A stretch of DNA of 64,000 bases from Beroe forskalii (taxonomy: Eukaryota; Ctenophora; Nuda; Beroida; Beroidae): positions 62,001-126,000 of the forward strand of contig WFMF01000057.1 in the NCBI GenBank assembly GCA_011033025.1, in the 5' to 3' direction. Both the position numbers and the translations under genes were made by a program. The first letter of the stretch is position 1, and every line of letters begins with the position of its first letter. This document shows, piece by piece, positions 11-61,825 of this stretch. The notes beneath the pieces are model-generated. The model had not been told where the DNA came from. It did no database searches and worked only from the letters and a program-made list of their open reading frames with translations.

Positions 11-3000
11 GTAAGTTTGTTTTTGCCTGGTGTTTTTTCGATCATCCAAACGCAAACGTTTAAAAAGGAATCAGGTGACACAATCTATGAATATTTCATA
101 ATTACTCTTATTACCAAAATGATGCTATTTCACCAGATCTCCCAGTGACAGAACACAGTCAGCACCTCGCCGATCCCAAATTTCAGGAGTACCAAATCAC
201 GTCTCCCATCACCGGCATAGTTTTTCCCGAATTTATACTATATCAATTTTGTATCGTCTCACAGCATGAATCTACTTAGCGAGTGTGTTTCGTTCATTGA
301 TTTGTTTATGGCGATTACACTGTGCACCGGGTATGAAATACATGCCACAAAATCAAAAGCCGATGTAATCGGGGTGACTGCCTTGCTGAATGCTAATCAG
401 ATATCAGACAAGTATTTGACACTCGGTTACAGCATTTATCATTGTAAAAGATGATAATTTAAAATGCACTTATAAACATTTTCCTTGTGTTTGAATAATG
501 AGCGTAATTAAGCAGAGAGTTGTGAATTACGACATCAAAATACCGTCAAATGTGAAACCATCGCAACGAAACGGTTTGCAGCTATCAGATAATGTCTTCA
601 CACTCAGATCAGTGATTTTCCACTTTCAGAGCGGAGACGTGATTTCAGATCACGTCTGCACGCTCAGATCAGCATTTTGCCACGCTCAGCGCGGAGACGT
701 GATTTTCAAATCACGTCTCCGCTCTGAAAGTGGCAAAACACTGATCTGAGTGTGAAGACATTATCTGATAGCTGCAAAACTTTTCGTTGCGAAGGACTAT
801 GATATTTTGACGGTATTTTGATACCATTAGTTCACAATTCTTTGCTTAATTACGCTTATTATTCAAACACAAGGAAAATGCTGAGAGTGGTAAAACGCTG
901 ATCTGAGAGTGCAGACGTGATCTGAAATCACGTCTTCATTCTCATAAGTCATTGCGGGAGCTATGACGACATTTTCTGACGAATATCGATTCCAAGGCCA
1001 TGCCTACGTTATTAAGCTATGATAACGTGCCGTTCGAAATGGTGTATTTCTGCAACGACGAAATTTGGTGAAATTGCCAATGTCATGAATACAGTTAAAT
1101 CGCCCTTTTGCGTCCAAAGCTATTATATAATTATATAGTGATTATGATTATCGTTAATTTTTCGCCAAAATCACGTCTGGAGAAGGCCGACTTGTCGCCA
1201 CGCTGAGCGTGGCAGATCAGCAGTGTTCTGTCACTGGGCCAGATCTAATTGATAAATCTCGTTGATCATAATGATTTATTGTAGTTTTGAGATGCATACC
1301 GTATTCACTGTTCCTATTTTCAGCTCACATCAACTTATCTGACGGGATCCAGATACAGCAATGATGAAGAAGTTAGGATCCTTGCAGCTAGGATAATGTC
1401 ATGTGCAATGAACGGCATAGACTCTAATGCTTACTTCAAAGAAGTGGTGAGATTACCTCCATTTGAATTGAAAAGAAAATATAATAATTAAGGAATTTAA
1501 CTGGCTATGATTACCTAACACCAAGAGATTTAAGGAAAAAAATTGTTCTCTCATCTGTGTAACTATCAGGGAGAAGACATGATAGATTTACTGTATCAAT
1601 GGTCCTTGGCGGATAGAGAACCCCTGAAATCATATGCTGTGGAGATACTGAGTTACGGAGAAATCCTCTGCAGCAGGTTGGTTGGGTTCGCACTGAATTA
1701 TGGTAGCACTTGTCTTGAATTCTTATGACATAAGTACAGAGAAAACCTCGCTCTTGGCTCTCATAAGTAATAAGGCTACAGATATTCTCCTCAAACAATT
1801 ACAGTTGGAAATTTACTCAGTTTTAGAGTAGATTTACTCTGGTTCATATTCTTATTAGAATACCGTGTTCAGATACCATCAGAATAACGTGGAGCTAGTC
1901 AGTAAGCTGTTACAACAGTTGAGAGAAATGTACGGCAAAGCAAAGGTGGAATACAATGCAGCCCACCCTAAAACCTCAAACACAGGTAATCATGCAATGT
2001 ACTCAATCATCTCGGTTACATGACTCCAGAGTGATATGTTGAACATGAGAGTCTATATCCCATAAGAGGACTGCTACCTTGCACTGGTATTCTACCTAAA
2101 TATGCTATAAATCATTGCTAGATATGTGTATCTCCAAAGCAAAGTATTAAAGTACCTTGCCCCACCAGAGTTCGCCCCATGGCGTGAGGACACGCAGGAT
2201 GCTGTCTGCACCTCTACTAAAGAAGACACTCCCAATAAGGCCGGAGGAGTGAGTGCTGACAAAAACCCTCTCCTCAGACGGGAGTTGGTGGGCAGGAGGA
2301 ACTTTGAGGAGTTCAGATGTCAGGCTGTCCTCCACTTCCTGCTATCGCTTGGGGAGTACCAAGAGGTATCATTAGAACAAACCTTGGAGAATACCAAGAG
2401 GTATCATTAGAACAAACCTTGGAGAATACCAAGAGGTATCATTAGAACAAACCTTGGAGAGTACCAAGAGGTCTCATTAGAACAAACCTTGGAGAGTACC
2501 AAGAGGTATCATTAGAACAAACCTTGGAGAATGGAGAGTACCAAGAGGTATCATTAGGATAAACCGAGGAGAATACCAAGAGGTATCATTAGGAGAATCA
2601 TATGGTGTCATAGAACATGCTTTAAGCAATTGAATCATCTTTGCCCAATGTCCATTTGAAATTGGGATTGGGATGAGACACGTTTTGGTTTGGGTTGGAT
2701 TGGAATTCTTGATTTTGCATGTATTAAACATTGTGTTTTCAGTTCCTGGGTCTGATAATGAAGAACAGTATCTTGAAGCTGCTCCTCAACTACATCAGTA
2801 TAACCGATATCAACAGCCCGGTCATTTTCAGTATCATTCGGGTAGGTTTTTGCTTGATTGATTATTAAAGTTTCGGTTTCAGTGAGAAAGAGGTTCGTTT
2901 CGAACATTCTTTGGACTGATATTTTCAAATTTTGTGTAATAACCTTGATACCAAATTTGAAACCTAGAATTTGAGAACTTGAGGAGGAATTTCCGTAGAG

Positions 3001-6000
3001 CATTCATGGAATAATAATGCTGAGAATTCCCTACACTTGCTAATATTCATTTTACACACTCTTTCAGTACCTATCTGCTCTGCTTTGTCACAAGAAGTTT
3101 GCGAGTGAGTTCATGACCTATGACGGATTGCAGCTGCTCTTAGACCTTCCTTTCAACCAGCGAGCCCTTACTGGAATCAGCACCTGCTTCTACGCTTTGG
3201 TCTTCCACTCTACTGTTATGGAGCGGCTCTGTTCCTATAGCAACCATCTAGTGACACCTATCATGTCGTGAGTGTTCCAGTAACAACCATCTAGTGGCAC
3301 CCATCATGTCATGAGTGTTGCTATAGCAACCATCTAGTGACAACAATCATGTCGTGACTGTTGCTATAGCAACCATCTAGCGACACCCATCATGTCGTGA
3401 GTGTTCCCATAGCAACCATGTTATGAAGCTTTGATAATCCCAAAAATGACAATTTGGCAATTTATATCAATGAATTAATGAATTCATAAATTGCGAAAGT
3501 TCCGCACGTTGTTTCCATTCAAGCAATCATGTGATAACACCTGATATCATCTCAGGATATGTCTACAACAGCTGCGGGGTAAGTACGAGAGTGGACGATC
3601 GTACGTCAGACTATTCCTAACCTGTGGTTTCTACTATCAGACCATCATTGAGGAGTTTGATAAACAGTGCGGACTTCCAGTCTTCCTAGAGCTGGTCAGT
3701 GAGCATTCAGTATGAAGTTTGCTCGGGCGTTTTACGAATTACGATGGCCCCATTTCACTAAAACAAAGCCTCAATTTTCGCCATTCTAATAGATAACAGT
3801 AACCACAAGTACAGATTGAGCAATAGATGACTGCGAGTGAATTTATCCAATAAACTTGCGCCCCATCGACAATTGAATCTCATCGCTCTTTCGTTACCAT
3901 CACGCCACCCTGCAGCTGAAGAAGTCAGTGGAGGCACTCAAAGACCCGCCCTCCATTGAGGTAGAAGTGTTCCTGCTTCGACAGAAAGTGAAGCAGATGT
4001 GTAACGCTCTCCGGCAGTATCTCGCTGGACACACTATCCTCTACGCAGACCACCTGAGACGGGTCAAGGATCAGCAGGGAGTCGGGATGAGTCCTCAGAT
4101 CCACACTAACACTAAGGTAGGGAGACGGGTTAAGGATCAGCAGGGGGTGGGGATGAGTCCTCAGATCCACACTAACACTAAGGTAGGGAGACGGGGTTAA
4201 GGATCAGCAGGGGGTCAGGATGAGTCCTCAGATCCACACTAACACTAAGGTAGGGAGACAGGTTAAGGATCAGCAGGGGGTCGGGATGAGTCCTCAGATC
4301 CACACTAACACTAAGGTAGGGAGACGGGTTAAGGATCAGCAGGGGGTCGGGATGAGTCCTCAGATCCACACTAACACTAAGGTAGGGAGACGGGTTAAGG
4401 ATCAGCAGGGGGTGGGGATGAGTCCTCAGATCCACACTAACACTAAGGTAGGGAGACGGGTTAAGGATCAGCAGGGGGTGGGGATGAGTCCTCAGATCCA
4501 CACTAACACTAAGGTAGGGAATAAGGATCAGTATTTCTACCTTTAAATGCCAAGAGAATGGGCGTAAGGGAATGCAGTTTTCACAAAAATTTAAAAGGTG
4601 TGATATCGGTCCATTCTTTTCATTGAAATTTTTCATTCCTGTCTCTTCATATTTAGCCTCCCCACCTTTCTAGCAAAACCTGCTGTCTCATCTAATTAAT
4701 TGTTAATTTTTAATTGCTTCTTAACTGAGTGTTGCCTCACACAGGCACTAGAGCTAGAGGATAGAGTGAAGACTGCCTACGAGTATATTCAAGCTAACGC
4801 AGACTTTGACTGTATCTGGAAATCAATAGATGATGTACACAGGCAGGGTGGATTTGAGACTCTCATTCAGGCATTCTTCATTAGTAAGTCTACCGTTTTA
4901 TTTTCCTTAAATTAACTTATTAACTCATTCTGTGCTCAATTCTTTATAAGTTTATACTAAAATCGTTATTTTCAAGACGATGCCGTAAGTAATACTCCCA
5001 TATTTCAGACGAGACGTTCCGATCTAAAGGTTATGACGCTAGTCCCTGTATAATCACAGCTCTCACCTTCCTCACTATCCTACCTCGGTACCAACTGAAG
5101 CTTACTGACCAGTTCACTTCCCCCGACGGTGAATGAGCAGTTTCTCAATTCTACTGCATATGATAGCCCCTCCCTCCCCTCTCAGTTATTAGGAACCCCT
5201 TTTTGCATCTGGTAACCCTTCCTTTCCTTGTCTGTATTTGGAAATCCCCTAACCCTTCATTATTTGGAAACCCCCTCCCCTGTTTGCAATGGAAATTGAA
5301 AACCCCTCTCTCCCTATCTTCCTTGTCTGCATTTTGAAACCCCCTCCTCCCCTCTTAGAAACTCTCTATCTCCCCCAAGGCTTGTGACGTAACATGTAAA
5401 ACTCCGACAGGTGAATCCCACACAGTGATAAAGTTGATCCTGTCCGCTGCTGAATCGTACGGTAACATAGAGATACAGCGTTCAGCACTCAGTCTGATAG
5501 TGGTTGTGGTGTGTGGTCCGTACCGAGCTAACACCAACACTATGAGCCTGGTATGTACATTGCTTGGGGGTATTCTTTAAATAGTTAAATCTAATGTATA
5601 CTGGTATTGGATACTGTTGATGTAATGTATCAATGTATACTGGTACTGATTGTCCTTCATTCTAATGTATCAATGTATACTGGTACTGATTATCCTTAAA
5701 TCTAATTAAGGTGATGCTATGAATACTCGATGTCCGACGAATATGATTGATTCTGTTTGTTTGGTTCCTACGTGATTACATATCCTGGTTTTATGTGTTG
5801 CTGTGTTTAACTCATAATTTCAAAAACATAATGGCTTAGGTACTCGTCTTTGGAAATTTCAGTGACCATTAAACTGTGATTGCATGTATCGCATAATTTT
5901 ATTCTCGGATGATTATTTTCACTGTCAGTATTATATACGAGGTATACTCATAGTACGCTAAGTGTGTGTAGGTATAGCAAACATGTACCTACAAAGCACC

Positions 6001-57000: not shown

Positions 57001-60000
57001 GTCCCTAAACATGTAGTGGTAAGGGGATCCACATCCATTTGCGAAGAAGTTTACATTGTGGTTCTGTTCGACCCTGCTCCAGAAGTCGGACGAGTTAGAT
57101 GCTCTTTGGATGAAGTACATGAAGTGTCACGTCCTGATGATGTAAGAGACACGCAGTGTGGCGTATTTGTATAATAAGGGACTCGTAGTACGACTGAGTT
57201 ATTGACTTTATCAGGCTAATTGCGTGCTTTTCTGACACCACGACAATAACACTGTCTTGTTAACATGGCATTGACTGCTGAAAGTGCCGTGCCACAGTAG
57301 GTCGGACTAAAAACATTGCCACATCTATTTGAAACATTGTGATCATAAATGCCAGACCAGGTATCCTGAAAACATATAATCAGAACGTAAAACCAGGACG
57401 TATCTCTTATTTCTAATGCCTACATCAGTATATCAGGCCTGGGGTTCGAAGAATCAAGGATACCTGGTCTGGCATACTGGATAACTGGACACTAGTCATC
57501 TCAAAAGTTTTTTAATCTGTATCAGACAGCAATTTCCGGCTCGAAAACTCAAGAACAATCGCATTTCATAAGAAAAATAGCAATTTTTGGACCCATTCTC
57601 TCCTGCCTTAATCTCCCTTGTTTAGTCGACCTTATCTCTTCCATTTTGTTTGATATACGTATAGAATGCCCATGTAGTGATGTATCTGACTATATCAAAT
57701 AGTTGGAAGGTTTTAAAATGAGTCTCATGTTGCAGTGAAGTCTTCAAGAGACAAATGTCCCGCTTTGTCCCGCAATGTCCCGCTATGTCCCATTTTTGTC
57801 CCGTTGCTCACCTATTTTTCCAAACGGGACATTTTTTGGAGCGGGACAAAACGGGACAAAGCGGGACAAAGCGGGACGTTGGCCCCCCCCGAGTAAGTCA
57901 AGCAACAGATCAGAGTAAGTCAAGCAACAGAGCAGAGTAAGTCAATAACAGATCAGAGTAAGTCAATAACAGATCAGAGTAAGTCAATAACAGATCAGAG
58001 TAAGTTGAGGAACAGATCAGAGTAAGTCTAGCATCCTTGATGATAGAAATGGTAAGCGATTTCTCCATGCGCTTTTGGAACTTTGATATGTACATTAACT
58101 TGCCTGCAGTTATTTGTCTTCAGATCACATTCAAGCTTTCAAGTTTAAATTTCTTGAGCACTGTTATAAGAGGATTTCCTACCCTTGATCACGAGGTAGC
58201 ATATTGGAATACTACTTACTAGGGGCATAACCATAGGTATACAAGATGATGGATCACCCGCCCTATTACTGCGTGCAAACCACAGACAACTCAGACGTGG
58301 AACCCATCACCTCCCTTTCCCTGTCTAACTCTGCCAGAATGATGGTCTCCTCTTCTACTGCGGTATGTTGTGCCAAGTACTTTTACAAATGGGGAAATTA
58401 CAGTCCTTGATATCCCCACTTATCCGTTTACTACAACCCTCAACCACTCAACTCTATCCTCACCGGCCTGTCTCCAAATTCATCTCATGACCTGCTCCAC
58501 TCTCTCCTCTTACCTTCACCCCCTCTCCCCTCAGGAAGCTGAGTTAAATAGGCAGCCTAACAACGCCTGCGCCCTGCACTCTCAGGAAGCTGAGTTAGAC
58601 AGGCAACCTAACAACACATGTACCTTCAGGAAGCTGAGTTAGACAGGCAGCCTAACAACGCCTGCACCCTCTGGTCCATCAGACCTTCCTCTTCTTCCTC
58701 AAGTGAGAGCAGTAATCAGGATGTCTTGGAGAGGAGGCATGTTATAGAGCGTGTGGACCACGCCACTTTCTCTCACCTCTCAGACGACCTGCTCCTGGCT
58801 ACCATGGCCGAGCACAAGTGCTGTCTCGTGGACTGCTACACGGGGAAGACCATATCAGTCCTTGCTAATCCTCCTGGGTATGTAATTCGTTTGTTTAATG
58901 CCTCCCGCAATATGTAAACATGATTTTAACAAGTTGATTATGGCCCAAAATTGCAAATACAGTCCTTTATAATAGCCAAGACTTTTGGATTAATTTTGTC
59001 ACTCATGACACTAGTTCTTGACACCATTTTTTCTTGCCACGAGTTTTAGACATCTTTCCACAGGTCGGACGGATACCACAAGAACCACGCAGTGTTCAAC
59101 TTCACAGATGACTTGGTCCTCAATGACGGTGTGCTCTGGGACTACAGAGCCATGTTTCCTATTTACAAGTTTGATAAGTTCAACAACATCGTCAGCGGGG
59201 TCTTCACCCCTGCAGGTACCTTAGGGAACAACATTTCAACATCTAAACGACATTTTAACCCCTTGAACGACATTTTAACTCCTGAACGACATTTTAACTC
59301 CTGATCGACATTTTGAAGTTTCAACCCCTAAACGACATTTAACACCTCTACTATGCTCTATCCTCTGAAATCCCTTACAGAGATGTCGCAAGGACCCGGG
59401 TAGAACCAAATTACTCGAAAAATTAACATGTTGATTCATTACCAGGAATAGAGATAATCATCAACACTGAGATCTGGGATATGCGAACGTTCAAGCTCCT
59501 CAACACCATCAACTCCCTGGACAACTGTCTCCTGAAATACAACCACTCTCGGGACATCATGTACGGATGTGAGTAACTTTTGAGTTTTTTTGTTTCATAG
59601 GTCATAAGATCATTGGTTTTGCTTTTGAACGTGGCTGATAGCTTTCTTCAATCTCCGGACTTCAATATTGCGACTATATTGAGAGAATTGCCACTCTTTG
59701 ATATCTTGTGCTCTCATCTGAAGTAATTCCCCATCTTCCGACAAACCCCGCATTTCAGTGTCGCACGTTAAACAAGAGATACACGACCACGAGATAAGTC
59801 CTTCCTACAAGCACGTGATGGGACCCTTCGAGAGCACCTTCAAAACCTTCGCAGCTAACAGCGGCTACCCCTCCCTCGGGACTTACGATGCCGGCAGACA
59901 GATCATAGACCTCAACTTCTGCAGGTTTTATAGACTCTTAGACATAGCTTCATTATGTCAGTATTTTGGAATAATCAAGATCAATTTATAACTGTCCTTA

Positions 60001-61825
60001 ATTTACTCAGTTGAGGGTAACCGCATCACCCCGAGGTACCTTGTGAAATATTGGCCCAGAAGAGTAGAAACCATGGTTTATTACTCATCTGCTGGATGAC
60101 CATTTCTTGGAACTTTTTCCGGTCACATCCAGGATGATATCTCCTTTTTTGCTCCATTCTAGAGTCTAAGACTCTAATAGGAGTTTATTACCCTTTCAGG
60201 AGAGATGAACTGGTGGTGACAGTTGAGTCTACGAACGAAGAGTTTACCTCTATGTGGACTGGAGGCTCTGTTGTCAAGCTCTACAAGGTTTGTGACTCGT
60301 TTTGTGGGAGTCTCACTGCTTGAGATGTATTCTTGAATTCTTCAAATTGTGTGGAATTTGTTTAATTTATGACATGGGATAAATGGGGCCTTTCGCTCTC
60401 TCAAAAGCTAAAAGATGGCATTCGTGATCACAAATTTGAACTTTTGAAATATAACCGGCTAGATATTAAATTCTGCAAGAATACCGGCGTGACGAAGTCA
60501 AGAGATATGATTTGTAAATGGTTTTTTGATTTTGAATGAATTGTCCTTGGCAGGTTGGCCGGGAGGATGATGACGAAGACGACGACGACGTTGAGGACGA
60601 AGACGACGATGAGGACGACGATGACGAATCAGTCGGCGACCTTGAAGACGACGGTGAGTGATGAAACATTTGTACTGCAGAAATATCTTAATATTGTAGT
60701 AACCTAGTAATCTGTAATCTTTGTTATAACCACATTGATCCTTGACCTATTTCTTTCATCACATGTAAGTTTTCACCCTTTTAGCTGGTCATGGTTTATT
60801 GCATCGATACTTGTTTCCAAGGTGTCTCACTATTCCTGTCTATCATTCGTTCATTTCATTTCCTCCTTTTCAGGCATCACATCATCTTCACCCTTGTCCT
60901 TTTCAGGCATCACCTCATCTTCGCCCTTGTCAACTCCAGAACGCACCTCACCTCAAAACTCCAACTCACCTCAAGTAAACACCTCATCGCCTGCCTTCAC
61001 TGATTACAGCACCACTGACTACAGCGCCACTTTAGGTCACTTTTAGGTCACTACTCACTATAGTCTATCGCTTTGATCGAATACCAAAGCCCAATCATCT
61101 AAGGGTCGCAGAGATCTCATACATTTCGTGGCGAACAAGTTTTCAGTTTGGAATGTCATCATACTGATTAACAAACTCCCTTACTTTTCCCCGATTAATT
61201 TCACGATATTATCCCCACTCACTGACTTGCTCACCCTCGCTATCATTTTATTCAGATGACATTTCTCTGTCTGATGGTGAGATGAATGAGGAGATGAGTG
61301 GTTCCTCAGATGATTCTCCAGATGATGATGACAATGATGATGAGGAGGAAAGGACCACTCAGTCCTCCCTCAACTTCTCTCTCATGTCCGACTCAGATGA
61401 AGGTAAGAATAGTAATACTACATTAACATCGGACTGTGTAGACTGTAGACAATGTTCTTATGTTTGTCTAATGTTTACAGTCTCATTTTATTCAGCTGAA
61501 GGTAACAATATTACCCCTGGACTGCAGGGGGGTTAGGTTTACTGTTTAGTGTATAGACATTCCCATGTTGGTGATGGTATGCTTAACATAGCACAGCGCA
61601 GAAGCGCCTTCATGATCAAGTATGTTGAAGAACGAAGATACTTTCAAGACGGTAAAATTTCTTATTTGAAACGTCTAGCTTTTTGATAACATTATTTTAT
61701 ATCAGCTATGCTGACATCAAGTGCTACCTTGTAATGTCTAACGTTTACATTTTCCTGCAGACGGGACTCAGGGCGTTATTGTGGTGCCTCGTAACCGAAC
61801 ATCAAGTAGCAAATCGAGTGGTTAA
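1..61825 (+). CDS. DCAF1: DCAF1 (VPRBP), 27 exons in window, N-terminus beyond left edge
   Basis: DCAF1 is the substrate-recognition subunit of the CUL4-DDB1 E3 ubiquitin ligase. Exons w2 to w27 splice into 4023 nt (1340 codons plus stop) with every phase consistent. Window-numbered landmarks: armadillo-like helical repeats in residues 1-592, with family-typical stretches such as [11 protein letters not shown] and [11 protein letters not shown]; LisH motif near 640-670 ([15 protein letters not shown], across two exons); a WD40 propeller from about residue 790 on, including [17 protein letters not shown] and [11 protein letters not shown], which supply the two WDxR boxes expected for DDB1 binding; acidic Asp/Glu tail from about 1195. 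The family is about 1500 residues in human, so roughly the first 100 residues are missing to the left. Introns of 39 kb and 10.8 kb are filled with satellites, transposons and other genes. Family recognition is from memory of the human protein, not from a database search. Confidence 0.93.
141..1238. mobile_element. Non-autonomous DNA transposon with 16-bp TIRs and 8-bp target duplication
   Basis: The left end CCCAGTGACAGAACAC (141-156) is the exact reverse complement of the right end (1223-1238). The direct repeat CCAGATCT flanks it at 133-140 and 1239-1246. An 8-bp duplication fits hAT-like or other 8-bp transposons. No transposase ORF is present; the interior is a large fold-back. It sits wholly inside the intron between exons w1 and w2. 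Confidence 0.9.
477..880. repeat. Fold-back inverted repeat inside the 141-1238 element
   Basis: The left arm (about 477-650, starting CATTTTCCTTGTGTTTGAAT) is repeated in inverse orientation at about 705-880, with a short spacer rich in AGACGTGAT motifs. ORFs called here are by-products of the repeat. Confidence 0.88.
1324..1446 (+). CDS. DCAF1: DCAF1 exon w2
   Basis: Acceptor TTTTCAG ends at 1323 and donor GTGAGA starts at 1447. There are 41 codons in phase 0, with helical-repeat residues such as [17 protein letters not shown]. Confidence 0.88.
1570..1676 (+). CDS. DCAF1: DCAF1 exon w3
   Basis: Acceptor CTATCAG ends at 1569 and donor GTTGGT starts at 1677. It encodes [19 protein letters not shown], the counterpart of the family's DWASNAEEPLQAYAV-type segment. 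It ends in phase 2. The donor is weak and was chosen because it alone joins w4 in frame. Confidence 0.78.
1873..1985 (+). CDS. DCAF1: DCAF1 exon w4
   Basis: Acceptor GTGTTCAG ends at 1872 and donor GTAATC starts at 1986. It completes an Arg codon with w3, then reads [19 protein letters not shown], as expected for this part of the family. Confidence 0.8.
2145..2365 (+). CDS. DCAF1: DCAF1 exon w5
   Basis: The acceptor is probably CCAAAGCAAAG (weak polypyrimidine tract), and the first donor GTATCA is at 2366. It encodes [13 protein letters not shown] and ends [10 protein letters not shown] in phase 0. The last 15 or so bases plus the donor are repeated downstream (see the 35-bp array). Confidence 0.8.
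2366..2600 (+). repeat. 35-bp minisatellite built on the exon w5 splice donor
   Basis: Units of about 35 bp carry the exon end ACCAAGAG followed by GTATCATTAG. Donor-like GT positions are 2366, 2401, 2436, 2471 (GTCTCA), 2506, 2548 and 2583. Spacing is 35 bp except one unit of 42. The units are not multiples of three, and reading on past the first donor meets a stop at 2408-2410. Confidence 0.92.
3068..3267 (+). CDS. DCAF1: DCAF1 exon w6
   Basis: Acceptor CTCTTTCAG ends at 3067 and donor GTGAGT starts at 3268. It encodes [19 protein letters not shown] and [20 protein letters not shown], among the most conserved parts of the DCAF1 N-terminal region. It ends in phase 2. Confidence 0.92.
3225..3420 (+). 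repeat. 43-bp minisatellite built on the exon w6 splice donor
   Basis: The exon end (ATAGCAACCATCTAGTGACA...ATCATGTC) and the following GTGAGTGTT recur with an exact 43-bp period. The exon/intron points fall at 3268 (GTGAGT), 3311 (ATGAGT, GT lost), 3354 (GTGACT) and 3397 (GTGAGT). Confidence 0.92.
3556..3694 (+). CDS. DCAF1: DCAF1 exon w7
   Basis: The acceptor ATCTCAG ends at 3555 and the donor GTCAGT starts at 3695. It encodes [13 protein letters not shown] and ends [12 protein letters not shown] in phase 0. Confidence 0.88.
3916..4116 (+). CDS. DCAF1: DCAF1 exon w8 (shortest form)
   Basis: Acceptor CACCCTGCAG ends at 3915 and the first donor GTAGGG is at 4117. It encodes [19 protein letters not shown] and [12 protein letters not shown]. 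It ends in phase 0 with QIHTNTK. The exon end is repeated as a 66-bp array; use of the second donor (4183) would add 22 residues in frame. Confidence 0.88.
4051..4522 (+). repeat. 66-bp minisatellite across the exon w8 splice donor
   Basis: Each 66-bp unit (22 codons) holds the exon end, CTAAG and then GTAGGGAGAC. Donor-like sites sit at 4117, 4183, 4250, 4316, 4382, 4448 and 4514. All spacings are 66 bp except 4183-4250, which is 67 because of one extra G. That G puts a TAA at 4198-4200 in the gene's frame. Confidence 0.95.
4745..4883 (+). CDS. DCAF1: DCAF1 exon w9
   Basis: Acceptor CCTCACACAG ends at 4744 and donor GTAAGT starts at 4884. It encodes [18 protein letters not shown] and ends in phase 1. 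Confidence 0.9.
5009..5128 (+). CDS. DCAF1: DCAF1 exon w10
   Basis: Acceptor ATATTTCAG ends at 5008 and donor GTGAAT starts at 5129. It encodes [19 protein letters not shown] and ends in phase 1. Confidence 0.88.
5411..5550 (+). CDS. DCAF1: DCAF1 exon w11
   Basis: Acceptor CTCCGACAG ends at 5410 and donor GTATGT starts at 5551. It encodes [20 protein letters not shown] and ends in phase 0. Confidence 0.88.
5600..5705 (+). repeat. Short intronic repeat (about 44-bp period)
   Basis: TCTAATGTAT...ATACTGGTA recurs between 5590 and 5705 in the intron after exon w11. The rest of this intron (to 6056) is AT-rich with no feature I recognise. Confidence 0.7.
6057..6330 (+). CDS. DCAF1: DCAF1 exon w12
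   Basis: Acceptor TTATTTCAG ends at 6056 and donor GTTAGA starts at 6331. It encodes [22 protein letters not shown] and ends [11 protein letters not shown], nearly the family consensus. The final single G joins AG at 45455, so the next exon lies 39 kb away. Confidence 0.93.
6475..7850 (+). repeat. 174-bp satellite, about 8 units
   Basis: The marker GGGATGTTCATT occurs at 6545, 6719, 6893, 7067, 7241, 7414, 7588 and 7758. Units stay open in one frame because 174 is divisible by 3, giving spurious ORFs. A further, inverted piece is at 13660-14040. Confidence 0.95.
12146..12605. mobile_element. Dispersed SINE-like repeat, copy 1
   Basis: About 460 bp, starting AAGGATTGACATAAGAGGCG and ending GAAGAACCTCGCGTG. 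It matches 37320-37776 almost base for base in the same orientation and interrupts the GGTACC array. GC-richer than its surroundings. I see no transposase and no clear target duplication, so the class is uncertain. Confidence 0.82.
12884..13015. mobile_element. Small TIR element (132 bp) inside the GGTACC array
   Basis: ATAGACAC..CGGGTCCAT at 12884-12908 is mirrored by ATGGACCCG..GTGTCTAT at 12990-13015 with a few mismatches. The centre is GC-rich, unlike the array around it. Confidence 0.75.
13660..14040. repeat. Inverted pair of 174-bp satellite units
   Basis: The 174-bp unit seen at 6475-7850 appears forward at about 13666-13857 and then in inverse orientation at 13858-14035. The centre is near 13857 (TTTGACCTTATATCTCG). 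This makes a near-palindrome of about 370 bp. Confidence 0.9.
14150..18330. repeat. 176-bp satellite array with an internal strand switch
   Basis: Units of about 176 bp (some 168 or shorter) contain CCCATGGATGGGACGTGGCG and CCTGAGTGCCAAACCAACC. From 14150 to about 16665 they run on one strand, and from there to 18330 on the other. Units near 16030-16300 and 18000-18330 are more degraded. ORFs of 76-134 codons on both strands are artefacts of the repeat. Confidence 0.95.
18787..18815. repeat. Perfect 13-bp hairpin with alternating CG stem
   Basis: CAAATGCGCGCGC, loop GAA, then the exact complement. The alternating purine-pyrimidine stem could form Z-DNA. It is not in a gene. Confidence 0.85.
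20469..20490. promoter_or_regulatory. Palindromic double E-box next to a TATA-like box
   Basis: GCACGTGACA-GG-TGTCACGTGC forms perfect 10-bp arms, immediately followed by TTATAAGC. This is a plausible bHLH-zip binding site and core promoter, but no gene follows within 3 kb, so the function is conjecture. Confidence 0.4.
20883..22308. repeat. Permuted inverted repeat (two blocks, each present in both orientations)
   Basis: Block X (20883-21088) recurs inverted at 21690-21890. Block Y (21089-21496) recurs inverted at 21891-22308. The order is X-Y-spacer-X'-Y' rather than the mirror X-Y-Y'-X'. Y starts with a long hairpin (ATTGGTTGATTGACAAAT with a GC-rich inner hairpin). Arms look nearly identical, so the structure is young. 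Confidence 0.88.
22309..24082. other. Upstream part of duplicated segment, no gene seen
   Basis: AT-rich. From about 22690 on, stretches match 27345-28800 and 30300-30430 (e.g. CTGTACAGTGTACTTAAGC; TTGACGTGTTATCCCCCGTA). ORFs here are short and unrecognised. Confidence 0.65.
24083..24239 (+). promoter_or_regulatory. Conserved upstream region of helicase copy A
   Basis: 157 bp almost identical to 31353-31513 in front of copy B. It probably contains the promoter or 5' UTR; no clear TATA box at a standard distance was seen. Confidence 0.4.
24240..26108 (+). CDS. DEAD-box RNA helicase with N-terminal zinc knuckle, Vasa/DDX3-like (copy A)
   Basis: An ATP-dependent RNA helicase of 622 residues in a single exon. 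Residues 9-22 form a CCHC knuckle (C-x2-C-x4-H-x4-[15 protein letters not shown]). C60, C63, C78 and C80 could bind a second metal. The core has the Q motif (PTPIQ), Walker A AQTGTGKT (about 138), [18 protein letters not shown] (about 256), SAT (about 291), ARGLDI and HRIGRTGR (about 524). The second RecA lobe has several long insertions not usual in the family (around 360-385, 420-440 and 490-515). Zinc-knuckle helicases are found among Vasa proteins of germ cells, but lack of introns suggests a retrocopy. It lies inside the DCAF1 intron on the same strand. Confidence 0.9.
   Translation: MARDKSYICSECDETGHVAEGCPQIARVERSYEEDRLKTGIKFSAYRDTKVTVLTPGTRCDKCSKLQIAQLNDDEFKCKCVVPRDEVKPIKNFKDLELESQILFNIVNKKSCNFEVPTPIQRFALPTILKGHDVMGCAQTGTGKTAAYLIPIVKFVVEKGFRKTAVGNDEAQKPEVLIVAPTRELAQQIQRTALKLTLRMKHSCGIKVIFGGAASQPQRRRVRKGCNILIGTPGRILHFIKDYIISMENTEYLVLDEADKMVDDGFRPDLEKIIGLTDMPSKEYRQTLMFSATFRSDLQDIAAAAMKKNFRIIKAGKISSAQPNVKQEFECIDDNNQKLPRLKEILCDLYVNSEKTFLEHNCWKREPGHPNNVDYLCHVLGKCCGLKTLIFVETKRQAQEIAECVNEHMYNFFKSRFMKSFQNMPICNDLDLVHFGATQIHGGMSQGAREFALLGFKQCSYPILVATNVAARGLDIEGVSYVINFELPLNLSKIAKYHNEDTKALKGGEIKRRPVRDQFEEYIHRIGRTGRAGNTGTSITLFSQKEDKHLAISFVRMLEIAQQDVPEWLLEIAEEEASVLRAGKKAPKEKIISKTAEVLAELSIKESPIIGPDSIELWGNED
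26109..26639. other. Helicase 3' flank, AT-rich
   Basis: Matches 34425-34910 downstream of helicase copy B (for example TGGCGAATATTTC). It contains no gene. Confidence 0.7.
26640..26985 (-). pseudogene. Sulfotransferase fragment (copy A, C-terminal third)
   Basis: Matches the 3' third of the intact gene at 34912-35778, including [15 protein letters not shown] and the PAPS loop RKGKVGDWK. Similarity stops abruptly near 26985. It has lost three residues of the intact copy's DMVEDLPRV and changed frame near its end. With no PAPS-binding YPKSGTTW it cannot be active. The break marks one edge of duplication unit A. Confidence 0.88.
27764..28358. mobile_element. TIR element with a minisatellite interior and 6-bp target duplication
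   Basis: A perfect 21-bp terminal inverted repeat (TGGTCGTATGAAAG...) at 27764-27784 and 28338-28358 is flanked by TAATGT at 27758-27763 and 28359-28364. The interior is a minisatellite of GGGTTCACCAGGGGGTCAG-type units, with a short stretch in inverse orientation at the left (27785-27890). Confidence 0.88.
27930..28337 (+). repeat. G-rich minisatellite, about 23-bp unit
   Basis: GGGGTTCACCAGGGGGTCAG(T/C)A repeats about 16-20 times with small length variants. Runs of 4-5 G in every unit make one strand a potential G-quadruplex former. Confidence 0.92.
28942..29342. mobile_element. Fold-back TIR element of about 400 bp
   Basis: TTACACCCGGGTTCCTGTTA at the left is mirrored by TAACAGGAACCCGGGTGTTA at the right. 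Both continue into repeats of ACTCGCGAGAAA. Central copies of CTCGCGAG are themselves palindromic. No transposase. Confidence 0.82.
29360..29419. promoter_or_regulatory. Cluster of four CACGTG E-boxes
   Basis: CACGTG occurs at 29360, 29371, 29401 and 29414, four copies in 60 bp. It lies just outside the TIR element and could bind bHLH-zip factors. No gene start is attached. Confidence 0.45.
30161..30231. repeat. Long hairpin (16-bp outer stem plus inner GC hairpin)
   Basis: ATTGGTCTCGTTACTA is complementary to TAGTAACGAGACCAAT, and inside lies GTGCC-TAC-GGCAC. It has the same architecture as the hairpins at 21095 and 22242 but a different stem sequence. Confidence 0.85.
30780..31150 (+). repeat. 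45-bp minisatellite
   Basis: About eight units of CACATACTCACATTCC...ACACCCTCAACG, some 43-44 bp. ORFs on both strands here are artefacts. It lies about 360 bp upstream of helicase copy B and is absent before copy A. Confidence 0.92.
31514..33489 (+). pseudogene. DEAD-box RNA helicase, frameshifted tandem copy (copy B)
   Basis: A near-copy of 24240-26108. One base is missing after 31711 relative to copy A, which ends the N-terminal frame at 31715-31717. The remaining frame is open to 33489 with all core motifs ([23 protein letters not shown]). After the frameshift there is no ATG before the Q motif, so a full product needs a correction, an unseen splice, or a sequencing error. Stretches identical to copy A alternate with heavily changed ones (e.g. 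around 32740-32890 and 33120-33260). The C-terminal tail has an 18-codon Lys-rich unit ([10 protein letters not shown]) three times where copy A has one. Confidence 0.85.
33256..33417 (+). repeat. 54-bp in-frame coding repeat in helicase B tail
   Basis: Three 18-codon units beginning [20 protein letters not shown] and [10 protein letters not shown]. Copy A has a single unit at the same place, so the expansion postdates the duplication. Confidence 0.88.
33499..34411. mobile_element. TTAA-flanked element with G-run/C-run ends and about 230-bp inverted repeats
   Basis: Starts with a long G run and GTTCAACCCAAA, and ends with the mirrored TTGGGTTGAACCCC and a long C run. TTAA precedes (33495-33498) and follows (34412-34415) it. 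Arms reach inward to ATCTATCGATTGCA. A TTAA duplication fits piggyBac-like or Kolobok-like elements. No transposase. Copy A has no insertion here, so it is younger than the duplication. It starts 9 bp after the helicase stop. Confidence 0.9.
34912..35778 (-). CDS. Cytosolic sulfotransferase (SULT family)
   Basis: 288 residues in one exon, the usual length of cytosolic SULTs. It would transfer sulfate from PAPS to a small hydroxyl or amine acceptor. The 5'-phosphosulfate loop YPKSGTTW lies near residue 50, the 3'-phosphate site [15 protein letters not shown] near 120, and the C-terminal loop [11 protein letters not shown] near 255. [11 protein letters not shown] carries the candidate catalytic His. 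No signal peptide or membrane segment. It runs opposite to DCAF1 and the helicases, inside the DCAF1 intron. The 5' half is GC-richer than its surroundings. The substrate cannot be told from sequence. Confidence 0.92.
   Translation of the reverse strand: MSKLYPPNNLPFPHNAYRGMALPVFVTPERLSHLQDHHTARPGDVCLVTYPKSGTTWLSYILYQLHDKPELRSLDEAVPWITTMPSSVVEDLPYPRIFRFHLLHEWLPQSITRDTKIVYCYRNPKDVSVSYFHHTKFFKQIYDGFEFESFEEFFKHYTSDNPLHYGTWIEHVRSWLPHRNDPNVLFVAFEDMVEDLPRVIGQIAKFLRLTVSEERISEIANSSTFTNMKKDDRLNRKDLGENVVDMKKDFIRKGKVGDWKNFLTESQSAIFDELCSTLPEDFNIRFEM
35779..36120. other. Upstream of sulfotransferase, no other feature seen
   Basis: AT-rich; it presumably holds the sulfotransferase promoter on the minus strand, but I see no distinct core element. 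Confidence 0.5.
36121..36350. mobile_element. Near-perfect 230-bp palindrome (MITE-like)
   Basis: Arms 36121-36233 and 36235-36350 are complementary over their length with few differences, centred on AAGTTTAAAACTT. The outer end GAAAGAAGCTG pairs with CAGAGTTCTTTC. There is no coding capacity. Confidence 0.92.
36351..37319. other. AT-rich intronic DNA with a dispersed repeat
   Basis: 36790-36980 shares stretches with 63700-63920, such as GCAACTTTGTACTGTGTTTT. No gene seen; the ORF at 37072-37317 has no family resemblance. Confidence 0.55.
37320..37776. mobile_element. Dispersed SINE-like repeat, copy 2
   Basis: Matches 12146-12605 from AAGGATTGACATAAGAGGCG to GAACCTCGCGTG with scattered differences and small indels. 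Same orientation. Confidence 0.82.
37777..38852. other. Intronic sequence without recognisable genes
   Basis: AT-rich. ORFs at 38167-38511 (minus) and 38434-38751 (plus) overlap each other and show no motif I know. Confidence 0.55.
38853..43198. mobile_element. 4.3-kb fold-back element with inverted arrays of a 172-bp repeat
   Basis: The left arm (AGAGTCAAATC..., CTTTCCGGAACTTTCCGGGG near 38990) is mirrored at the right (near 43050). The arms lead into an array of about 172-bp units (GAAGGTCGTAGAGACTTCG) running forward at 39050-40020 and in inverse orientation at 41100-41670 and 42857-42970. The centre (40020-41100) is unique and has no recognisable transposase. Confidence 0.85.
41679..42848. 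mobile_element. hAT-like element nested in the fold-back element
   Basis: TAGGGTTTCCAT at 41679 is mirrored by ATGGAAACCCTA ending at 42848. TTTTTCGC is duplicated on both sides (41671-41678 and 42849-42856). Subterminal regions at both ends are full of TATCTAGATA palindromes. No long ORF; non-autonomous. Confidence 0.92.
43199..43907. other. Intronic sequence, no gene recognised
   Basis: An 89-codon ORF (43380-43649) has no motif I know. Otherwise unremarkable. Confidence 0.5.
43908..44088. repeat. Cloverleaf-like cluster: outer inverted repeat with three internal hairpins
   Basis: The outer 13-bp stem GTACTTTAGAGGC (43908-43920) pairs with 44076-44088. CGCAGA pairs with TCTGCG just inside. 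Within are three successive hairpins: ATGATTTAGAG/CTCTAAATCAT, ATTTAAATGTC/GACATTTAAAT and ATATAGAGCCCTGC/GCAGGGCTCTATAT. No coding sequence. It could be a small MITE or a structured RNA/DNA element. Confidence 0.85.
44127..44226 (+). repeat. Dispersed 100-bp repeat, copy 1
   Basis: GTGCAACCAGGTGGGTCCCA and neighbouring sequence recur inverted at 47945-48060. The rest, to 45454, holds no gene I can recognise. Confidence 0.8.
45455..45650 (+). CDS. DCAF1: DCAF1 exon w13 (first half of LisH)
   Basis: Acceptor CACCTCTCAG ends at 45454 and donor GTAAGA starts at 45651. Joined to w12 it reads [20 protein letters not shown], matching the family's EPVLQDKRSDHVKFCKYAAE-like stretch. It ends [16 protein letters not shown] in phase 2, the first half of the LisH motif. 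Confidence 0.93.
45937..46186 (+). CDS. DCAF1: DCAF1 exon w14 (second half of LisH)
   Basis: Acceptor CCCTCCCAG ends at 45936 and donor GTACTT starts at 46187 (weak). It begins [18 protein letters not shown], finishing LisH, then a Ser/Thr/Pro-rich linker. It ends in phase 0. Confidence 0.88.
46352..46495 (+). CDS. DCAF1: DCAF1 exon w15
   Basis: Acceptor CATTTTACAG ends at 46351 and donor GTTGGT starts at 46496. It encodes [18 protein letters not shown], the family's PPTLDSIITEYLREQH-type segment. Phase 0 at both ends. Confidence 0.9.
46631..46800 (+). repeat. Tandem copies of the exon w16 splice acceptor
   Basis: (A)TTTCAG followed by TGTGA(A/G)CA(T/C)CCCATGTC occurs with the exon side starting at 46636, 46672, 46727 and 46778. 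Units are 36, 55 and 51 bp. Only the last opens a long coding exon; the copy at 46727 reads into TAA after seven codons. Confidence 0.9.
46778..46919 (+). CDS. DCAF1: DCAF1 exon w16
   Basis: Acceptor TCATTTCAG ends at 46777 and donor GTGAGA starts at 46920. It encodes [14 protein letters not shown] and [11 protein letters not shown], close to the family's PPFSLFTPHQCPEP and PINFTSRLNRR. It ends in phase 1. Confidence 0.93.
47253..47422 (+). CDS. DCAF1: DCAF1 exon w17 (WD40)
   Basis: Acceptor CATGTTCAG ends at 47252 and donor GTAAGT starts at 47423. It encodes [18 protein letters not shown] and ends [13 protein letters not shown] in phase 0. The exon end and donor are multiplied, and the array is split by the 10.4-kb insertion. 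Confidence 0.93.
47411..47450 (+). repeat. Left part of 22-bp array built on the exon w17 donor
   Basis: CAGATCAGA|GTAAGTCAAGCAA: donors at 47423 and 47445, 22 bp apart. Continues at 57891-58027 beyond the insertion. Confidence 0.9.
47461..47590. repeat. Left GTCCCG fold-back terminus
   Basis: GTCCCG(C/G)TTT repeats, then a centre TTGCTCACC...GGACATTTTTTGG, then CGGGACAAA repeats in inverse orientation. Similar to 57755-57881. Confidence 0.85.
47945..48060 (-). repeat. Dispersed 100-bp repeat, copy 2 (inverted)
   Basis: Inverse complement of 44127-44226, e.g. TGGGACCCACCTGGTTGCAC. Confidence 0.8.
48061..48720. other. Low-complexity purine-rich sequence
   Basis: Degenerate repeats of GGGACAAAGACAAATGGGA type. 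ORFs on the minus strand (48229-48432, 48441-48686) follow from the repeat and are not supported as genes. Confidence 0.6.
48740..49918 (+). repeat. 29-bp dyad minisatellite, first block
   Basis: Units TGGTGTCAGAGACACGTAGT plus CTCACCTAC, about 29 bp, with a conserved GTGTC-AGA-GACAC dyad. It contains a larger internal duplication (49060-49310 versus 49313-49560). Confidence 0.92.
49921..51109 (+). repeat. 666-bp tandem duplication inside the dyad minisatellite
   Basis: GGAGAAAAATACGACTCGTG starts at 49921 and 50587; the two copies are nearly identical. The second is cut at about 51109, where the 29-bp array resumes. A 63-codon minus ORF and a plus ORF from 50270/50930 are shared but not recognised. 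Confidence 0.9.
51110..52330 (+). repeat. 29-bp dyad minisatellite, second block
   Basis: Same unit as the first block, more homogeneous (CACCTGCTGGTG(T/A)CAGAGACAC), decaying after 51950. Together the two blocks hold roughly 70-80 units. Confidence 0.9.
52331..53182 (-). other. Probable 3' region of the LINE, no gene assigned
   Basis: Lies downstream of the reverse-transcriptase frame on the minus strand. A 163-codon minus ORF (52563-53054) has several Cys and a Ser run but no motif I can name. No poly(A) tail is obvious. Confidence 0.4.
53183..56844 (-). mobile_element. Non-LTR retrotransposon (LINE): endonuclease plus reverse transcriptase, one frameshift
   Basis: On the minus strand, a 712-codon frame (56844-54706) and a 522-codon frame (54751-53183) overlap. 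The first has an APE-type endonuclease ([26 protein letters not shown]) and the start of the reverse transcriptase ([33 protein letters not shown]). The second continues with [13 protein letters not shown] and the catalytic WADDLV box, then a thumb and a Cys-His motif (CDFC...HLLSICP). The frame changes near 54840, between the first catalytic Asp and the ADD box, so this copy cannot make an intact enzyme. It resembles APE-class LINEs of the Jockey/CR1 kind; a clade cannot be fixed by eye. No ORF1 was found. Confidence 0.9.
56845..57348. other. LINE 5' flank and return of decayed dyad array
   Basis: To about 57130 probably the LINE 5' untranslated region. GTAAGAGACACGCAGT near 57140 is a remnant of the 29-bp array, so the LINE inserted into it. 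Confidence 0.5.
57349..57475. mobile_element. 127-bp element with perfect 19-bp inverted ends
   Basis: ATGCCAGACCAGGTATCCT (57349-57367) is the exact inverse complement of 57457-57475. Too small to code. Confidence 0.75.
57755..57890. repeat. Right GTCCCG fold-back terminus
   Basis: Mirrors 47461-47590: GTCCCGCTTT units, TTGCTCACC centre, GGACATTTTTTGG, CGGGACAAAG units, then GGGACGTTGG and C8. Confidence 0.85.
57891..58027 (+). repeat. Right part of 22-bp array built on the exon w17 donor
   Basis: Seven more CAGA|GTAAGT-type junctions at 57893, 57915, 57937, 57958, 57979, 58000 and 58022, spaced 21-22 bp. The first lacks its left half because of the insertion. Confidence 0.92.
58237..58362 (+). 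CDS. DCAF1: DCAF1 exon w18 (WD40)
   Basis: Acceptor AACCATAG ends at 58236 and donor GTATGT starts at 58363. It reads [14 protein letters not shown], continuing GQIR of w17 as the family's GQLKLYN. 42 codons, phase 0 at both ends. Confidence 0.9.
58531..58680 (+). repeat. Tandem copies of the exon w19 splice acceptor
   Basis: T(C/T)CAG|GAAGCTGAGTTA...GGCAGCCTAACAACGCCTG occurs three times, with exon sides at 58535, 58586 and 58630 (51- and 44-bp units). Only the third gives an open frame; the first two run into a stop because of the 44-bp unit. Confidence 0.92.
58630..58877 (+). CDS. DCAF1: DCAF1 exon w19 (WD40)
   Basis: Acceptor CCTTCAG ends at 58629 and donor GTATGT starts at 58878. It encodes [18 protein letters not shown] and [18 protein letters not shown] Ser-rich insertion sits between two WD strands. 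It ends in phase 2. Confidence 0.9.
59064..59215 (+). CDS. DCAF1: DCAF1 exon w20 (WD40, first WDxR box)
   Basis: Acceptor TTTCCACAG ends at 59063 and donor GTACCT starts at 59216. It encodes [19 protein letters not shown] and [17 protein letters not shown], nearly the human sequence. WDYR is the first DDB1-binding box. Confidence 0.95.
59235..59345 (+). repeat. Intronic minisatellite of about 21 bp
   Basis: AACGACATTTTAACTCCTG-type units, about five copies, decaying. Confidence 0.85.
59446..59568 (+). CDS. DCAF1: DCAF1 exon w21 (WD40, second WDxR box)
   Basis: Acceptor TTACCAG ends at 59445 and donor GTGAGT starts at 59569. It encodes [23 protein letters not shown] is the second box. It ends in phase 1. 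Confidence 0.95.
59759..59924 (+). CDS. DCAF1: DCAF1 exon w22 (WD40)
   Basis: Acceptor GCATTTCAG ends at 59758 and donor GTTTTA starts at 59925. It encodes [19 protein letters not shown] and RQIIDLNFC, matching the family's PFGSSFRTFNATDY and NIFDLC. Confidence 0.92.
60200..60287 (+). CDS. DCAF1: DCAF1 exon w23
   Basis: Acceptor CCCTTTCAG ends at 60199 and donor GTTTGT starts at 60288. It encodes [15 protein letters not shown] and ends VVKLYK, the last propeller strand. Confidence 0.92.
60554..60653 (+). CDS. DCAF1: DCAF1 exon w24 (acidic tail)
   Basis: Acceptor CTTGGCAG ends at 60553 and donor GTGAGT starts at 60654. It begins VGRE, then almost only Asp and Glu, as in the family tail. It ends in phase 1. 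Confidence 0.93.
60907..61035 (+). CDS. DCAF1: DCAF1 exon w25 (alternative acceptor at 60874)
   Basis: Acceptor CCTTTTCAG ends at 60906. A duplicate acceptor ending at 60873 would add 33 nt (11 residues) in frame. It encodes a Ser/Thr/Pro-rich stretch. The donor GTCACT at 61036 is weak, so the 3' border is less sure. Confidence 0.78.
61256..61402 (+). CDS. DCAF1: DCAF1 exon w26 (acidic)
   Basis: Acceptor TTATTCAG ends at 61255 and donor GTAAGA starts at 61403. It encodes [14 protein letters not shown], an Asp run and [11 protein letters not shown]. It ends in phase 1. Confidence 0.9.
61761..61825 (+). CDS. DCAF1: DCAF1 last coding exon w27
   Basis: Acceptor TTCCTGCAG ends at 61760. It encodes [20 protein letters not shown], then Gly and TAA at 61823-61825. 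The end differs from the human C-terminus, as expected for this variable region. Confidence 0.85.

Follow-up and report, generated by a model that had tools for sequence, protein, structure and literature searches.

Tandem repeats that cross exon–intron borders, termed 'mirage' minisatellites, have been described in the globin and Adh3 genes of amphioxus (PMC3087553). In the portions of that report available to us, the copy number of a mirage differs between haplotypes in one globin gene, and a role for these repeats in intron gain was proposed. PGBD5 and TnC of lancelets also carry mirages, according to the accessible part of a second report (PMC3902484), and within the literature covered, much of it available in part, descriptions have so far come from amphioxus only. 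Two further systems are related. Variable internal tandem repeats in human segmental duplications have units of about 30 bp, some of them at exon–intron borders (PMC2812944, as excerpted); intron gain by tandem genomic duplication, in which AGGT is duplicated, or by repair of staggered breaks has been reviewed (PMC3443670, likewise), and staggered-break repair is the route described for intron gain in Daphnia in the part of that report at hand (PMC4202315). No report of a ctenophore mirage appeared among the matches listed for the open-access literature on ctenophore minisatellites, introns and splice sites. The arrays described here are of the kind already known from amphioxus, probably in a lineage new for it. 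Were mirages common in a ctenophore, they would represent a more general route of intron growth, and perhaps of intron origin.

The window, a stretch of 64,000 nucleotides at C658:62001–126000 of a 216-Mb eukaryote assembly, contains a DCAF1 gene at 1324..61824 on the plus strand, whose joined exon translations match human DCAF1 in PDB with an E value of 1e-73. Its 27 exons were positioned manually, aided by a small gene finder that had been trained on these DCAF1 exons; two weak acceptors, near 2143 and 58242, have an uncertain placement, and the N-terminal exons probably lie outside the window. Introns of 100–400 bp make up 46 of the 58 listed for the genes studied. DCAF1 also has long introns of 39 kb and 10.8 kb, which contain tandem repeats and mobile-element-like reading frames. 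Within the 39-kb intron are two intronless, mutually similar frames (24240–26108 and 31804–33489) that we take, by eye, to be DEAD-box-helicase-like. A dispersed short element of ~40 bp occupies 2065–2104 of another DCAF1 intron and recurs on other contigs at 86–100% identity; this stretch alone accounts for 40 of the 46 matches obtained when the genome was searched with 5.1 kb of DCAF1. A 78-bp intronic stretch at 47018–47095, with 17 matches on other contigs, is probably a short mobile element.

The initial annotation held that a tandem unit comprises both the exon edge and the splice site at seven DCAF1 borders, and sequence reading, TRF and a 24-mer test together bear this out for all seven. 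Four are donors and three are acceptors, so that both 5' and 3' exon borders are represented, and unit lengths of 22–66 bp fall within the mirage range of about 10–160 bp. Further traits ascribed to mirages are that normal splicing is left undisturbed and that array length is unstable in somatic tissue. All lie on the plus strand. At the w5 donor (exon end 2365), 6.8 copies of a 35-bp unit, which takes in 18 nt of exon edge and the splice site, occupy 2348..2592; at w6 (exon end 3267), 4.4 copies of a 43-bp unit with 38 nt of exon edge occupy 3230..3419; and at w8 (exon end 4116), 7 copies of a 66-bp unit with 61 nt of exon edge occupy 4056..4520. The w17 donor array (exon end 47422) is in two parts, the left at 47411..47449 with a 22-bp unit and the right, beyond an insertion, at 57891..58033 with ~6.6 copies of a 21–22-bp unit. 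Among the acceptors, w16 (exon start 46778) has 3–4 diverged copies of a ~50-bp unit with ~21 nt of exon edge at 46630..46798, w19 (exon start 58630) has 3 copies of a 44–50-bp unit with ~41 nt of exon edge at 58530..58670, and w25 (exon start 60907) has 2.1 copies of a 33-bp unit, in frame, at 60864..60931. Beyond these seven, the donor at 61402 is an eighth border with a repeat, a weak two-copy case on the plus strand at 61393..61510 (end approximate) that scores 20/24 in the 24-mer test.

For that test, we took the 24 letters around each junction, with the junction at their centre, and looked for matches in the 400 nt to its left and to its right. Six of the seven DCAF1 borders have a further copy matching at 20–24 of 24 positions within this distance, including w16 (21/24), which is absent from the TRF list, and array-free junctions reach 11–16/24 on either side. 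The w17 donor scores 17/24 because a ~10.4-kb insertion splits its array, and its 34-nt edge repeats past the insertion at 97% identity (C658:119905–119938, or 57905–57938 of the window). The insertion itself (47450..57890, no strand assigned) has inverted ends, a run of G followed by CCAACGTCCCGCTTTGTCCCG and the complement of this, and GAGTAAGT flanks it on both sides. Inside it are more tandem repeats and, on the minus strand, two long frames (53183–56844) that presumably, judged by eye, belong to a LINE-type retrotransposon.

The DCAF1 units are mutually unlike, the best agreement between any two being 15 of 20 letters, and the arrays therefore arose separately; copies at these borders lie on the intron side, with the real exon at one end. 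Separate origin and intron-side growth had both been proposed at the outset. A single mobile element spreading copies of itself was rejected on the dissimilarity of the units and on a DNA search of the genome, in which the w8 and w5 units matched only the contig of the window and contig C88 (best candidates scored). The same unit comparison and searches found no introner-like sharing of one sequence among many introns.

The 5' half of DCAF1 recurs on contig C88, recovered with the 5.1-kb query in pieces of 84–99% identity, and the 3' half recurs on C332, where the matching pieces have 82–98% identity; a DNA search of the genome found no second copy of 45.3–47.4 kb. C88 and C332 probably represent the other haplotype, and could instead be a recent duplication, with C88 a paralogue and not an allele. 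Copy number at w5, w6 and w8 differs between C658 and C88, the latter being a haplotype by our inference. The w5 array is longer on C88, where repeat matches cover 298 bp compared with 227 bp on C658. By contrast, w6 is 129 bp shorter on C88 (3 × 43) and w8 is 397 bp shorter (6 × 66 + 1). The letters of the C88 sequence at w8 run through the exon edge and the splice site once and then into unique intron; at w6 the junction likewise occurs once, and a TGTTxCTATAGCAACCA-type repeat is already present on both sides of the unit. Because the w6 and w8 junctions are unexpanded on C88, the arrays grew in place, and the two borders lacking arrays there let the states before and after expansion be compared directly. 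The exon edges of C658 and C88 show four differences at w6 and four at w8, all synonymous. Of the six intronic w8 copies on C658, three match the C88 exon copy letter for letter across 61 nt. In the 3' half, the C332 match begins at 58627 at w19, and w25 falls inside a C332 match.

We then looked at other genes of the same genome. The sample comprised C469:1–208900, fetched before its repeats were known, together with Prp8 and two dyneins (L035 and L036), picked as conserved families, the dyneins because their matches split into short exons; L003, L004 and L006 served for repeat counting only, apart from a coding scan of L006 from which nothing was kept. Gene models outside DCAF1 were made with a home-made gene finder and by eye. 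The names Prp8 and dynein come from family matches in the genome, and the labels P4-ATPase, cathepsin, GPCR and exonuclease are what we take the genes to be from motifs recognised by eye.

The pattern had been presented as a peculiarity of one gene, and this did not hold: arrays of the same structure occur in Prp8, in a P4-ATPase-like gene, in both dyneins and in a gene at C469:113.9 kb. The last has a donor array of 36 copies of a 33-bp unit (C469:113990–115182). The P4-ATPase-like gene, also on C469, has an acceptor array with a 30-bp unit and a donor duplication of 274 bp in two copies, a unit that exceeds the mirage range given above; at its acceptor 161095 a repeat is seen by the 24-mer test and was not counted by TRF. 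An acceptor array in Prp8 consists of ~43 copies of a 58-bp unit that carries the codons of GTYFP. Dynein L035 has one acceptor array, and in dynein L036 two donors and one or two acceptors have arrays.

Both ends could be placed for 71 introns, and of their 142 junctions 14 qualify, about one in ten. These are distributed as 7/52 in DCAF1, 3/28 in the P4-ATPase-like gene, 2/26 in dynein L036, 1/24 in dynein L035, 1/4 in Prp8 and 0/8 in three small genes; the list leaves out the gene at C469:113.9 kb, with one array, and a GPCR-like gene in which none of seven junctions has an array by the 24-mer test. Applied to 144 junctions, which come from nine genes or fragments of genes, that test gave a copy at 18/24 or better for 12 (P4-ATPase acceptor 157151 was entered in this list as 157171, and one near 159282, where no site was found, was left out). 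The direction of the copies is uniform: all six acceptors have theirs to the left, all six donors have theirs to the right, and none lies on the exon side.

Several other repeats were seen in these regions. In Prp8 (L033/L034, reverse complement 13413–13469), a 22-bp array lies in the intron after the mirage and shares its CCATGGT-type palindromic words with the mirage unit. A 35-bp repeat that contains TGACGTCA forms a dispersed family, found at C469:155840–156020 and 158230–158437, and also at 168920 and 182189; it ends just upstream of two P4-ATPase-like acceptors. Between P4-ATPase-like exons, at C469:154046–155046, lies a separate gene model that we assume, by eye, to be exonuclease-like. 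At 5–45 kb of C469, several minisatellites form opposite-orientation pairs some kilobases apart (for example 12214–13342 and 29101–30153), which gives them the look of termini of large inverted elements.

Like amphioxus mirages as described in the accessible portions of those reports, the units found here span the exon–intron border at 5' or 3' ends. As far as the same portions go, the present case differs, probably, in phylum, and further in that ~10% of sampled junctions are affected, in arrays of up to ~43 copies, in a duplicate locus without arrays at two borders, and in a positional control, given below, that shows no peak at junctions. The human repeats, in the excerpted account, belong to primate paralogues of recent origin whose transcripts show new introns, whereas those described here lie in conserved genes and are known from DNA alone.

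We consider it likely that these arrays are mirage-type minisatellites, the product of random tandem duplication surviving where it is harmless, at exon–intron borders. Short tandem duplications would arise anywhere in the genome, by slippage or by end-joining between short repeats, and some of them would expand into arrays. Those wholly within exons would mostly be removed by selection; those within introns, or running from an exon over its splice site, would survive, the border-crossing ones because the exon-proximal copy keeps the exon and the splice site and the extra copies become intron. With loss inside exons and introns of 100–400 bp, many surviving arrays would therefore straddle a junction.

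Alternatively, tandem duplications might arise preferentially at splice junctions, with R-loops or nicks there as possible causes, as the initial annotation suggested for DCAF1. Targeting of junctions and random seeding followed by selection can be told apart simply, by the profile of repeats with distance from the junction, which we drew for the 71 introns as the share of points that have a copy no more than 400 nt away. Inside the exon, where some points may fall beyond a short exon, this share is 6/142 at 60 nt (4.2%), 5/142 at 45, 7/142 at 30 (4.9%) and 10/142 at 20. At the junction it is 14/142 (9.9%). In the intron it is 21/142 at 20 nt (14.8%), 23/142 at 30 and 24/140 at 45 (17.1%), and deeper still 19/138 at 60 (13.8%), 18/108 at 80, 21/88 at 100 (23.9%) and 17/70 at 120. 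The profile has no peak at the junction; it trends upward from exon to intron, with a dip at 60 nt.

We also compared the overlap of arrays and splice sites with random placement, using TRF arrays of period at least 20 and score at least 50 in introns of up to 3 kb. A unit of the same length was placed randomly, though not wholly inside an exon, and junction spanning was counted. Pooled, 11 of 22 arrays span a junction, compared with 7.5 expected (P 0.066). For DCAF1 the figures are 5 of 7 compared with 2.05 expected (P 0.02), an excess that carries little weight because the gene was chosen for its striking pattern; in the other genes they are 6 of 15 compared with 5.46 expected (P 0.48), about the rate of random seeding. 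The numbers, 71 introns and 22 arrays, are small. Missing from the TRF count are w16, the split w17, donor 61402 and P4-ATPase acceptor 161095; the array at L036:1003–1326 was counted as intronic, and its unit by eye reaches the next exon; and an acceptor array at the end of L036, which runs off the sequenced piece examined, is in no count. The enrichment at splice sites that the initial annotation would predict beyond DCAF1 is thus not seen among the 15 arrays of the other genes. Its statement that the pattern exceeds chance stands for the repeats themselves and not clearly for their coincidence with junctions. On the profile and the arrays outside DCAF1 we set aside junction-directed birth as the main cause, and judge it improbable in spite of the DCAF1 and pooled figures; a mild preference for junctions is possible.

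A further proposal was that selection retains the arrays for the redundancy they give, with spare splice sites of use around long introns. The sites are indeed well preserved: GT or AG is kept in 6/6 copies at w5, 6/6 at w17, 35/36 at C469:113990, 3/3 at w16, 3/3 at w19 and 2/2 at w25, and, among copies with a matching exon edge, AG is kept in 35/35 of the Prp8 array and in 8/9 of the dynein L036 array. They are less complete at w6 (2/3), w8 (5/7) and in dynein L035 (6/8), in part a register effect of the ungapped comparison. The arrays are nearly uniform throughout, and because of this intact sites say little about redundancy. Further, the inner donors at w5, w6 and w8 would lead to a frameshift or a stop, except for one in-frame w8 copy that would add 22 residues, and the C88 copy of the locus has neither the w6 nor the w8 array. 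Translation of w19 likewise meets a stop on entry at copy 1 or 2. Reading frames would thus favour the exon-proximal copy, and the outermost splice site would be the one used. Selection for redundancy is not needed to account for the arrays, and we regard it as very unlikely.

That the arrays are assembly artefacts is scarcely credible, even though tandem repeats are prone to misassembly, the arrays here are known from assembled sequence and one amphioxus globin mirage was misassembled in the draft genome (PMC3087553, as excerpted), for copies differ from the consensus unit at 2–18% of sites, an insertion with ends of its own breaks up the w17 array, the two assembled copies of the locus differ at w6 and w8 by whole units, and re-sequencing of lancelet PGBD5 argued against artefact in the accessible part of that account (PMC3902484).

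If random tandem duplication with survival at borders is the source of the arrays, it may also bear on the origin of introns. Of the 13 introns in dynein L036, three show a shared sequence between their own donor and acceptor junctions, 17 nt (14+3), 11 nt (10+1) and 9 nt long. A match of at least 10 letters at both ends occurs in 2 of 71 introns, the 17-nt and 11-nt cases, compared with 0.06% when donors are paired with the acceptors of other introns; the 9-nt case was seen after its acceptor had been re-placed by hand. At the 17-nt and 11-nt introns, an alignment with the paralogue L035 shows its exon uninterrupted (the joined chains lose frame at their ends and only the middle is usable); at the 9-nt intron, L035 is uninterrupted by eye, in the exon at 4619–4778. 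The interior of these three L036 introns does not look like copied exon. No direct repeat of at least 8 nt at both ends was found in the DCAF1 introns.

The three L036 introns are possibly the footprint of intron gain, by duplication or by staggered-break repair; intron loss in L035 is a possible alternative. Relative to the accessible portions of the intron-gain literature (PMC3443670, PMC4202315), the likeness lies in the duplicated splice-site context and in the 9–17 nt end repeats of three dynein introns, and the difference lies in DCAF1, which is without a footprint of at least 8 nt, and in a gain deduced from one dynein paralogue. Tandem duplication across junctions is frequent (~1/10 of those sampled) and variable between apparent haplotypes. 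We therefore raise, tentatively and with more doubt than conviction, the idea that it may be a steady source of intron sequence and of new introns, with L036 then showing the outcome and the C658/C88 pair the start, both within a single genome.

The same assembly contains a mitochondrial genome of 13.3 kb and 82.5% A+T, contig C1134. ARAGORN, run with bacterial settings, found no tRNA genes on it, and all frames of at least 90 codons lie on one strand. In its COX1, AGA stands at sites that we take to be conserved Arg. A glutamate-receptor exon, used as a species marker, matched 364 sequences; the 60 listed are receptors of vertebrate type, none of them named as ctenophore, which speaks, if anything, mildly against a ctenophore. 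In the failure to find tRNAs, in its one-strand frames and in this reading of AGA, C1134 resembles the mitochondria of ctenophores, and we consider it very likely that the animal is one. The traits given for these in the available part of a published description are absent tRNAs, no ATP6 or ATP8, the same code, fast evolution and one-strand transcription (PMC6991124).
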